DNA from: Lysobacteraceae bacterium
GTDB taxonomy: Bacteria > Pseudomonadota > Gammaproteobacteria > Xanthomonadales > Ahniellaceae
Length of the DNA: 47,442 bases
Direction: 5' to 3'
Assembly: GCA_021299185.1 (NCBI GenBank)
Contig: JAJTHZ010000029.1
Span: 1 to 47,442, forward strand
The translations under genes and the position numbers were made by a program. Below the pieces are notes generated by a model, which saw only the letters and a list, made by a program, of their open reading frames with translations, had not been told where the DNA came from and did no database searches. Below are positions 44,192 through 47,442 of this stretch, one piece after another; the stretch's first letter is position 1; every line of letters begins with the position of its first letter.

Positions 44192-45652
44192 ATGAGCCTC
44201 GCCGCGATTCTCGACTTCCTCGCCAAGGCGAGCTACTTCGCCGCCGCGCTGCTGTTCATCCTGGGCCTGATGCAGATGGGCTCGCCGGTCACGGCGCGCA
44301 AGGGCATCCGCTGGGCCGGCGTCGGCATGGTCATCGCCACCGTGGTGACCTTCTTCGCGCCCTCGACCTGGGGCGAACACGGCATCGACACGCTCAACCT
44401 CGGCCTGATGGTGCTCGCCATCGTGCTGTCGTACGCGTTCTGGGTCTGGGGCAAGAAGGTCCCGATCACCGACATGCCGCAGATGGTCGCCATCTTCAAC
44501 GGCATGGGCGGCGGTTCGGCGGCGGCGATCGGTGCCGCGGCGATGATCAACGCCGCGACGTTCACCGGCGAGTGCACCCCGCAGGCGATGGCCGCGCACG
44601 CCTGCATGGACACCACCAAGTCGGTGCTGGCCATCCTCGGTGCGCTGATCGGCGCGATCTCGTTCTCCGGTTCGGTGATCGCCTGGGCCAAGCTCGATGG
44701 GCGGCTGGACAAGCGCTTCACCTTCGGCGGCCAGCAGGTGGTGAACCTGCTGGTGTTCCTCGCCTGCCTCGGGCTCGGCGCCTACCTGGTGTTCGCGCTG
44801 AACGTGCCGGTGATCATCGCGTTCTTCGCCCTGTGCCTGCTGTTCGGCGTGCTGATGACGCTGCCGATCGGCGGCGCCGACATGCCGGTGGTGATCTCGC
44901 TGTACAACGCCTTCACCGGCCTGGCCGTGGCCTTCGAAGGCTACGTGCTGCAGAACGAGTCGCTGATCATCGCCGGCACCGTGGTGGGCGCGGCGGGCAT
45001 GCTGCTCACGCAGTTGATGGCCAAGGCCATGAACCGGCCGATCAGCAACGTGCTGTTCTCCAACTTCGGCGGCGGCGGCGGCAGCGGCGAGGCGATCAAG
45101 GGCTCGATGAAGCCGATCGAGGCCTCGGACGCGGCCTCGCTGCTGTATCTGGCCGAGAAGGTCATCGTGGTGCCGGGCTACGGCATGGCGGTGGCGCAGG
45201 CGCAGCACAAGATGTGGGAGCTGTGCCAGCAGCTGATCAAGCGCGAGAAGGACGTGAAGTTCGCGATCCACCCGGTCGCGGGCCGCATGCCCGGTCACAT
45301 GAACGTGCTGCTCGCGGAAGCCGGCGTGCCCTACGACCTGATCGCCGACATGGACGACATCAACCCCGAGTTCGCGACCTGCGACGTGGCGATCGTGATC
45401 GGCGCCAACGACGTGGTGAACCCGGTGGCCAAGACCGACAAGTCGAGCCCGATCTACGGCATGCCGATCCTCGACGTGGTCAACGCGAAGAAGGTCATCG
45501 TCATCAAGCGCGGCAAGGGCACCGGCTTCGCCGGCATCGAGAACGCCCTGTTCTACGCCGACAACTGCAGCATGCTGTATGCCGACGGCCAGGAAGCGGC
45601 GAACAAGCTGATCGCGGAACTGAAGGCCGTGGATTCCGGCGGCGGGCACTGA
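44192..45652 (+). CDS. pntB: NAD(P) transhydrogenase subunit beta
   Basis: A 486-aa subunit with about eight to nine transmembrane helices (domain II), including FNGMGGGSAAAIGAAAMINA and LPIGGADMPVVISLYNAFTG, and a C-terminal NADP(H)-binding domain III with VIVVPGYGMAVAQAQHKMWE, HPVAGRMPGHMNVLLAEAGV, DINPEFATCDVAIVIGAND and VIKRGKGTGFAGIENALFY. The enzyme uses the proton gradient to drive NADPH formation. The start is one base after the pntAB stop. A GC hairpin overlaps the stop codon. Confidence 0.97.
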   Translation: MSLAAILDFLAKASYFAAALLFILGLMQMGSPVTARKGIRWAGVGMVIATVVTFFAPSTWGEHGIDTLNLGLMVLAIVLSYAFWVWGKKVPITDMPQMVAIFNGMGGGSAAAIGAAAMINAATFTGECTPQAMAAHACMDTTKSVLAILGALIGAISFSGSVIAWAKLDGRLDKRFTFGGQQVVNLLVFLACLGLGAYLVFALNVPVIIAFFALCLLFGVLMTLPIGGADMPVVISLYNAFTGLAVAFEGYVLQNESLIIAGTVVGAAGMLLTQLMAKAMNRPISNVLFSNFGGGGGSGEAIKGSMKPIEASDAASLLYLAEKVIVVPGYGMAVAQAQHKMWELCQQLIKREKDVKFAIHPVAGRMPGHMNVLLAEAGVPYDLIADMDDINPEFATCDVAIVIGANDVVNPVAKTDKSSPIYGMPILDVVNAKKVIVIKRGKGTGFAGIENALFYADNCSMLYADGQEAANKLIAELKAVDSGGGH

Positions 45653-46016: not shown

Positions 46017-47126
46017 TCACCTCCCTGCCACGGCGCCCGCTCGCGGCAAGCCCGGCAACAGCCGCGCCGCCCGATCCACCGGACTGACCACGCCGCCCGG
46101 CCCGCGGTTGAGCACATGCGTGTAGATCTGCGTCGTCGACACGTCGCTGTGGCCCAGCAGTTCCTGCACCGTGCGGATGTCGTAGCCGGCCTCCAGCAAG
46201 TGGGTGGCGAAGGAGTGCCGCAGCGTGTGGCAGGTGGCGGGCTTGAGGATGCGCGCACGACGCACCGCACCGTGCACCGCGCGCTGCAGCAGTTTCTCAT
46301 CGAGGTGATGGCGTCGCTCGATGCCGCTGCGCGGGTCGATCGAACGGTTCGGCGCCGGAAACGCGTACTGCCAGCCCGGCTCGCGAGGGCCGTTCGGGTA
46401 CTTGCGCGCCAGCGCGTGCGGGAGCCATACCGCGCCGAATCCGGCGGCGAGGTCGGCGGCGTGCAGGCGCAGCGCCTCCGCCACCTGGTGGCGCAGCGGG
46501 TCGCGGAGCGAGTCGGGCAGCATGGTGACGCGGTCCTTCCCGCCCTTGCCGTCGCGGATGACGATCGTCCGGCGCTCGAAGTCGACGTCCTTGACCCGCA
46601 GCCGCACGCACTCCATCAGGCGCATGCCGGTGCCGTACAGCAGCGAGGCCATCAGCCAGGGGCGGCCGAGCAAGTTGTCGAGCAGCCGCGACACTTCGTC
46701 CGGCGTCAGCACCACCGGCAGCCGACGCGCCGCCCGGGCGCGCTGGATGTTCTCCATCCACGGCAACTGCACGCCGAGGACTTCGCGGTACAGGAACAGC
46801 AGCGCACTCAGCGCCTGGTTCTGCGTCGACGCCGCCACGTCGTGCCGCGCCGCCAGCCCGGTGAGGAAGGCCTCCACCTCAGGCGCGCCGAGTTCGCGCG
46901 GATGTCGGCGTCCGTTGGCGACGAGGAAACGCCGGATCCAGCCGAGATAGGCCGTCTCCGTCCGCCGGCTCATGTTCAGTCGCCGGATCCGCTCCCGAGT
47001 GACTTCGAGCACGCCGCGCCGCGGCGACTCCCGGCGGGCACCATCGGCCCGCTCGCGATGATCCTCCCCCACGACCCCCCGCGCCGTCCTGGCAGGGGAG
47101 GTCGGTGCACCAGCACTGTCATCCAT
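46017..47126 (-). CDS. intI: Integron integrase IntI
   Basis: A tyrosine recombinase of the integron type, about 369 aa. The N-terminal SAM-like domain reads [38 protein letters not shown]. Catalytic residues: Arg in [20 protein letters not shown], Lys near [12 protein letters not shown], then [36 protein letters not shown] (His-x-x-Arg, His, Tyr). The IntI-specific insertion that separates integron integrases from XerCD and phage enzymes is present: [20 protein letters not shown] followed by [20 protein letters not shown]. The gene reads away from the probable attI site. The start at 47126 ([10 protein letters not shown]) is a guess; family similarity begins at about [11 protein letters not shown]. 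Confidence 0.93.
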
Positions 47127-47239
47127 GGCGTCGGAGATCCGGTTCCGAACCGCGTCCTTGCGGTGGAGCCAAGTTACACACCACTTTGGGGTGCCGCTGT
47201 CAGCCCAGGCCGATGATTCGTGTAGGAAAACCGCCCGAC

Positions 47240-47267
47240 TTGACCAGTGCCCGATATCAGATATCGT
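47240..47267 (+). promoter_or_regulatory. Candidate cassette promoter (Pc-like)
   Basis: TTGACC (47240-47245) and TATCGT (47262-47267) separated by 16 bases read rightward from the intI upstream region into the putative cassette. Integron platforms normally carry such a promoter in or next to intI/attI. The spacing is one base short of ideal. The -10 overlaps the inverted repeat described for attI. Confidence 0.5.
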
Positions 47268-47308
47268 CTGTGTTGCCACCCCAAACTGGGGTCTACTAGT
47301 AGTTAGCC
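47252..47308. other. Probable attI recombination region
   Basis: Between intI and the first rightward ORF lie the inverted repeat CGATATC-A-GATATCG (47252-47266), a hairpin ACCCC-AAACT-GGGGT (47278-47292), and a core-like GTTAGCC (47302-47308), one mismatch from the integron core GTTRRRY. Base composition falls sharply from here to the window end. The crossover would be between G and TT at 47302/47303. This is a location-based inference; the window ends before any attC can be seen. Confidence 0.5.
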
Positions 47309-47324
47309 CAATATTCCCTGACTC

Positions 47325-47442
47325 ATGCCAAGCCAAAATACCCTGCTGCTGGTCTACTTCGTGGCCTTCTTCTTGCTGGCCTTTGTAGTGCGCTCCGTAA
47401 TCGTCTACCGGCAAACAGGCATCAACCCTTTGGTTCTCCCCG
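47325..47442 (+). CDS. Start of a probable first-cassette gene (membrane protein, partial)
   Basis: ATG at 47325 opens [20 protein letters not shown] and continues as a transmembrane helix followed by [17 protein letters not shown] to the window edge (39 codons). The [11 protein letters not shown] ending of a first helix resembles small isoprenylcysteine methyltransferase-like membrane proteins, but too little is present to be sure. The segment is visibly less GC-rich than the rest of the window and uses A/T-ending codons (CAA, ACA, AAT, GTA), consistent with a captured cassette. It starts 17 bases after the core-like GTTAGCC site. No clear ribosome binding site is seen, as is common in cassettes. 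Confidence 0.5.

Follow-up and report, generated by a model that had tools for sequence, protein, structure and literature searches.

An integron integrase and attI site at the end of the window

The stretch of DNA analyzed here, called the window, is the entire contig C98 (47,442 bases) of genome G000. Close to its end lies intI (46017 to 47126, minus strand), the gene for an integron integrase. The identity given to this gene in the initial annotation is borne out: the protein scores 477 bits against TIGR02249 (E 2e-143; curated cut-off, 265) and contains SAM-like and Phage_integrase Pfam domains. The TIGR02249 domain spans 46071 to 47009 and the stop codon is at 46017 to 46019; the start codon is assumed to lie near 47126, and the reading frame stays open upstream of this likely start. 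The tyrosine recombinase residues (catalytic motifs) and the integron-specific insertion that had been reported for IntI could be spotted by eye in the translation. This is the only full IntI in G000; IntI-like matches on C42, C261, and C72 are weak and fall under the cut-off.

The best 80 named relatives of the window IntI are 58 to 68% identical to it. A phylogeny with xanthomonad integrases had been proposed. In a tree of 33 IntI sequences, the window IntI falls in one group (95/94) with the IntI of family members G003, G001, G004, and G007, and this group sits in a 24-row clade that includes the IntI of Xanthomonas, Rhodanobacter, Lysobacter, and Luteimonas. The IntI of family member G002 is found elsewhere in the tree. 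The named genera in the clade suggest that the order surveyed below is Xanthomonadales.

To the left of intI are a split pntA and pntB (pntB, 44192 to 45652, plus strand), both confirmed by Pfam (PNTB, E 1e-166). The initial annotation had remarked that the side of pntB is not a known integron locus. PntA and PntB had no tblastn match (E 1e-20) in 202 other loci, mostly surroundings of intI, attI, or arrays; hence, the pntAB neighborhood is not a shared integron locus in this sample. As had also been noted, intI points away from a segment of lower GC content: 0.585 at 47127 to 47302 and 0.529 at 47303 to 47442, against 0.715 for the window.

That segment holds the attI region (47168 to 47302, plus strand). 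Within it we found TTGACC (47240 to 47245, plus strand), a predicted -35-like element of a presumed cassette promoter; a perfect palindrome, CGATATC-A-GATATCG (47252 to 47266); and, just before the core, an inverted repeat of ACCCC and GGGGT separated by 5 nt (47278 to 47292). The core, GTTAGCC (47302 to 47308, plus strand), was placed by its position in the attI alignment. What had been described as a core-like site aligns where 16 other intI-linked attI have their GTTAG core, and those 16 sites also have the layout of the window attI in common. By the G|TT rule, crossover is expected between 47302 and 47303. The letters of the pre-core inverted repeat vary by genus (ACCCC/GGGGT or CCGAC/GTCGG), and the inversion is kept (alignment A3; L182, L193, and L195).

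Only the start of the first cassette is present (47303 to 47442, plus strand; GC, 0.529). It contains an open reading frame (ORF) that begins at 47325 and is still open at the window end. The ORF had been called a small membrane ORF; the reading frame is there, but its membrane character was an impression, and its 39 residues matched no Pfam family. A search of Rfam returned one sub-threshold snoRNA match and neither attC nor attI. A 140-nt repeat considered as an attC was ruled out, its far end having no GTTRRRY.

Only 140 bases of the first cassette precede the contig end, so that the window array cannot be followed; it likely lies just past the window edge. Arrays of attC adjoin intI in family members G002, G004, and G005, and in G001 the array contig opens with an exact repeat of the final 119 nt of the contig that carries intI. 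With IntI, an attI layout like that of intI-linked sites, and attC arrays beside intI in relatives, the chromosomal integron platform of the initial annotation stands. We conclude that the end of the window carries the integrase and attI of a sedentary chromosomal integron with the family's own IntI lineage, an integron that is real but ordinary in itself.

Two observations concern G002. Its IntI match has an internal TAG (this and a second array, described below, concern L055 near 10380, L171, and L172). The first cassettes of the G002 array (L055 10536 to 11700 and 12087 to 12880) look to us like DUF4062 and TIR-domain genes, which we take as possible defense genes.

Further attI sites in the same genome

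The window attI has copies at C197:157-294 (78% identity, E 1.8e-23) and C132:937-1075 (75% identity, E 3.3e-20), neither with intI alongside, which brings the total in G000 to at least three. The similarity starts at the core and stops some 40 nt short of the likely intI start. Across the 66 nt that lead up to the core, pairs of copies have 52, 55, and 57 letters in common; in all three TTGACC lies 62 nt from the core, and the palindrome is kept (L010 and L011). The palindrome, of the form CGATATC-N-GATATCG, may be the site of a regulator. A weak match on C258 to the window edge (E 0.03) was set aside as chance after reading.

On C132 the attI copy is followed by two canonical, correctly oriented attC sites (L011 653 to 725 and 224 to 313, minus strand; E 7.5e-13 and 4.3e-12). 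Both belong to the 18 training sites of the attC model; both also fit a plain attC pattern, for which the backward control gave 11 matches. With at least two attC and no intI nearby, C132 is a CALIN, described in the IntegronFinder 2.0 paper as an attC cluster lacking an integron-integrase (PMC9024848). On C197 the core is degraded to GTTGTAC, and there is no attC in the roughly 150 nt left before the contig end.

Could the two extra sites be products of misassembly or belong to another organism in the bin? G000 is in 270 contigs, all three copies lie at most 1.1 kb from a contig end, and C197 has no attC, as might be expected of such an artifact. However, the listed contamination is 0.34%, and the tetranucleotide correlation with the window is 0.968 and 0.958 for the solo contigs, against 0.957 for another of the genome's own contigs. 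Composition places C132 and C197 in G000. The palindrome and the 62-nt spacing common to the copies also speak against an artifact, and the order-wide result described below is independent of G000. We regard this explanation as very improbable.

Using the attI of G005 as the query in 10 family genomes, we found it twice in G005, where one copy adjoins intI, three times in G008, and twice in G009, where one match is a 39-nt piece at a contig end. With G000, 4 of the 10 family genomes have more than one attI. The copies keep TTGACC or TTGA, the near-core inverted repeat, and often GTTA; several have decayed cores. The solo attI of G005 has a decayed core followed by a single 205-amino-acid ORF (L192 5424 to 6041), within a 97-kb contig and with chromosomal genes around it, as if one captured cassette had become fixed. 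The solo-attI array of G008 includes an ORF that by eye resembles an IS110-type transposase (L182 5409 to 6524). The second array of G002, which spans the contig ends (about 5.971 Mb to 19.7 kb), has no recognized attI and no IntI match beside it.

attI sites across the order

As a plain DNA query, the window attI gave no match in the others of 41 genomes and no plasmid match. This failure implies that attI diverges fast, and we therefore used a model (R2), built only from 17 intI-linked attI. R2 recognizes both solo sites of G000 (E 9.2e-7 and 1.5e-5); the window attI is a training member, so its own score is not independent. At E 0.001, R2 misses the intI-linked attI of G001, G002, G003, G004, and G007. 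Because the model fails on attI of several family members, the survey undercounts. For attC, a strict regular expression missed real sites and was replaced by a scanner and then by a covariance model (R1); a second attC scanner, in Python, fell far short of the model in the number of sites and was excluded from the counts.

The order survey covered 298 genomes, drawn from a larger group and scored with stricter filters, at a match threshold of E 0.003. R2 matched in 106 of them: 36 have one attI, and 70 have two to six. We searched for IntI in the latter 70 and in 10 of the 36 single-attI genomes (G005 and nine others). The 70 genomes, chosen for having at least two attI, contain 207 attI against 76 IntI matches over the cut-off, a few of which are pieces of broken genes. 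Exactly one IntI is over the cut-off in 53 of these genomes and none in seven; attI outnumber IntI matches in 68. Where no IntI is over the cut-off, the solo sites cannot now be served by one.

Anatomy of solo attI sites

We took all R2-matched survey genomes with at most 10 listed contigs (39), plus G000, and found 94 attI at E 0.001. The three G000 sites were left out, giving 91, each examined with 4.5 kb on either side where possible. By tblastn, a full-length intI lies beside 25 sites (counting that of G055, which is in two frames, and that of G235, which has an internal TGA), a partial intI beside 15, and none beside 51. In 13 of the 15 partial cases only the attI-proximal, N-terminal piece remains. 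An intI-linked and a solo attI occur together in 19 of the 39 genomes.

Most of the 66 solo sites, meaning those with no full intI, stand at the head of cassettes. After removal of 13 attC mirror matches (same coordinates, opposite strand), R1 found at least one correctly oriented attC on the cassette side of 58, comprising 44 of the 51 sites with no intI and 14 of the 15 with a partial one. Solo loci have 261 attC on the cassette side, with none misoriented and none on the intI side. Among the eight solo sites with no attC, two have less than 500 nt to search, and at least two (L325 and L326) lack a GTTR core at the model end.

We then compared core regions at 86 of the 91 sites, five having been dropped for lack of a GTTR core near the model end. 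Solo attI are 0.90 identical to the intI-linked attI of their own genome over the last 14 nt and 0.74 over the preceding 14 (38 pairs, 18 genomes); against attI of other genomes, the values are 0.70 and 0.47. Since R2 itself selects for order-wide letters, only the own-over-other difference is informative: 0.20 and 0.27 in these last 28 nt and 0.08 to 0.18 further out, with common descent contributing to it. In pairs of sites from the same genome with alignable DNA, similarity is lost within 4 nt of the model's core end in 41 of 49, and among eight intI fragments from genomes with a full IntI in the panel, seven are closest to that IntI (two tied with a sister genome). To judge by these comparisons, solo sites belong to the integron system of their own genome.

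Some solo sites have lost their integrase where they stand. The flank of a solo site in G168 is orthologous to flanks in G154 and G302 that carry intI there; the distance from flank to attI is about 940 nt in G154, corresponding to 164 nt in G168, which has two IntI elsewhere. G237 and G225 compare similarly (178 versus 1,162 nt). On these alignments, a solo attI can come about when intI is lost in situ, and some sites arose in this way.

Signs of activity at solo sites

Loss in place raises an alternative, namely, that the arrays at solo attI are dead, left over from integrons that were once complete but lost intI and ceased to recombine. The orthologous loci just described, the part of intI retained at 15 sites, the degraded cores at some, and the seven multi-attI genomes with no IntI over the cut-off all fit this explanation. 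Against it speaks a solo site with wholly different arrays in two genomes. G157 and G197 have one solo attI in common, with intI cut to the same remnant. The locus is 97.1% identical over 4,590 nt up to the core and 98.5% identical over 30 kb beyond the array. The arrays between (8.6 and 9.7 kb, with 16 and 20 attC after removal of 17 mirror rows) have no stretch of at least 150 nt above 92% identity and no cassette in common there. Given the same remnant and wholly different arrays, the arrays diverged completely after the local loss of intI. Each genome has one IntI match, at another place.

Further signs come from G174, which has five attI; the adjoining intI is full at one of them and a fragment at the other four. 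Its arrays have in common four one-cassette-long stretches, 98.4 to 100% identical, whose ends lie at attC or attI crossover points or no more than about 25 nt away; one of these shared cassettes is the first at a solo attI. Such near-identical single cassettes, the different arrays of G157 and G197, and core letters that track the genome's own attI argue against dead leftovers, which we consider an unlikely account of solo arrays overall. A 1.3-kb repeat, probably an insertion sequence, is also common to the G174 arrays.

Whole arrays might also be swapped at solo attI by homologous recombination with relatives through the flanks, in which case IntI would not be needed there. Both flanks of the G157/G197 array, at 97 to 98.5% identity, would permit such a swap. 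However, a swap leaves unexplained the single cassettes common to arrays of one genome, with their ends at attC or attI, as well as the own-genome core letters in attI. We think it improbable, more so than dead leftovers.

A solo attI can persist, as a locus common to G065 and G110, members of two genera, indicates: the flank is 73% identical up to 222 to 227 nt before attI. Persistence is no proof of use, because no IntI was matched in G065 and just a 202-position piece in G110. Taking the arrays and their sequences together, the solo sites look live.

Proposed action of IntI in trans and comparison with known integrons

We propose that one IntI acts in trans on several dispersed attI and that this arrangement is common in the order; we put the probability of this reading at about 0.75. 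IntI would be made at one place in the genome and would insert, remove, and exchange cassettes in trans at the dispersed attI, each of which would have a promoter-like element and an array of its own. The distant IntI would thus do the cassette work at solo attI, and the promoters there would work. In G000 itself the proposal builds on two cut-off contigs, C132 and C197. We favor it because G000 combines three attI, two attC behind that of C132, one full IntI, and matching composition; because R2 finds two to six attI in 70 of 298 genomes, with attI far in excess of IntI matches (207 against 76); because 58 of 66 solo sites head attC and their core letters match their own genome; and because arrays differ at one solo attI and cassettes are common to arrays. 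Against it we counted C197, with its degraded core and no attC, and C132, with two attC; the eight solo sites with no attC and the decayed cores at some; the seven multi-attI genomes with no IntI over the cut-off; and the G065/G110 locus, in genomes with no IntI match or a piece only, together with the second G002 array without a recognized attI.

How does this compare with known systems? Xanthomonas has a sedentary chromosomal integron with intI beside ilvD and CALINs at seven loci away from ilvD (PMC12444791). The related IntI, the attI-headed chromosomal array, and the CALINs elsewhere in the same genomes are alike; the window integron lies beside pntB instead, and the available part of that paper mentions no attI at CALINs, whereas most solo attI here head attC. 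CALINs as described with IntegronFinder 2.0 (PMC9024848) resemble the solo arrays in consisting of attC with no intI nearby, possibly served in trans, but here a lineage-specific attI with a promoter-like element stands at the start of the arrays. According to the same source, a common proposal holds integrase-less arrays to be degraded integrons; the program does not detect attI outside class 1.

The one published precedent that we found in the open-licence PubMed Central set is the Shewanella prophage M16-3, in which the same attI stands at the start of an integron and of a CALIN (PMC9892861). There too, an attI heads an array lacking intI and a complete integron is also present; that is, however, one case in one prophage, whereas the sites here are scattered around chromosomes, and 70 of the 298 genomes from the order have at least two attI. 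Secondary attG sites (Loot et al. 2024, cited in PMC12901181 and PMC12444791) likewise place cassettes away from the intI locus but are described there as distinct from both attI and attC; the sites here are recognized by an attI model. Cassettes with attI pieces are known from mobile integrons (PMC12901181). Genomes with several intI have been described, as have CALINs, which might be used in trans (PMC2426708, PMC9229058, and PMC9668308). In the open-licence PubMed Central set, outside of which lie most subscription journals, we found no paper in which a single integrase is described as serving several arrays headed by attI. What is new is that arrays headed by an attI but lacking intI occur across the order, with signs that they are active.

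If many integrase-less arrays in this order start with a live attI and promoter, these arrays would be working platforms, and one integrase would open several separate entry points per cell, and therefore several first cassettes would be near a promoter at once. A fixed attI might then also explain the conserved CALIN positions in Xanthomonas (PMC12444791).

Origin of solo attI sites

The finding raises the question of how attI multiply. The four solo copies in G174 are 96.7 to 97.2% identical to the intI-linked site. One end of each is at the attI core; the other is at one of four different points within intI, joined to unrelated DNA, and no motif shared by these junctions was seen by eye. 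This looks like recent copying with one ragged end, which is what the copying of attI units would leave. We cite it for a tentative view, one that we hold to be somewhat less probable than its opposite, of the integron in this order as a network instead of one locus. Units made up of attI, a promoter-like element, and a 5' piece of intI of variable length would be copied to new sites in the chromosome, perhaps through a process tied to the activity of the integron itself, while all of the arrays would be kept open to cassette traffic by a single integrase.

DNA on the intI side is common with another genome at 40 of the 91 sites, at some over about 400 nt only. Similar intI-side DNA links 12 sites in 12 genomes (L253, L257, L266, L274, L290, L293, L297, L298, L299, L307, L329, and L331). 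Sixteen pairs of sites were aligned; among the results listed, one pair, L293/L257, had no direct match. Six of the linked sites have a full intI, five a partial one, and one has none; their intI-side DNA is perhaps an ancestral locus.
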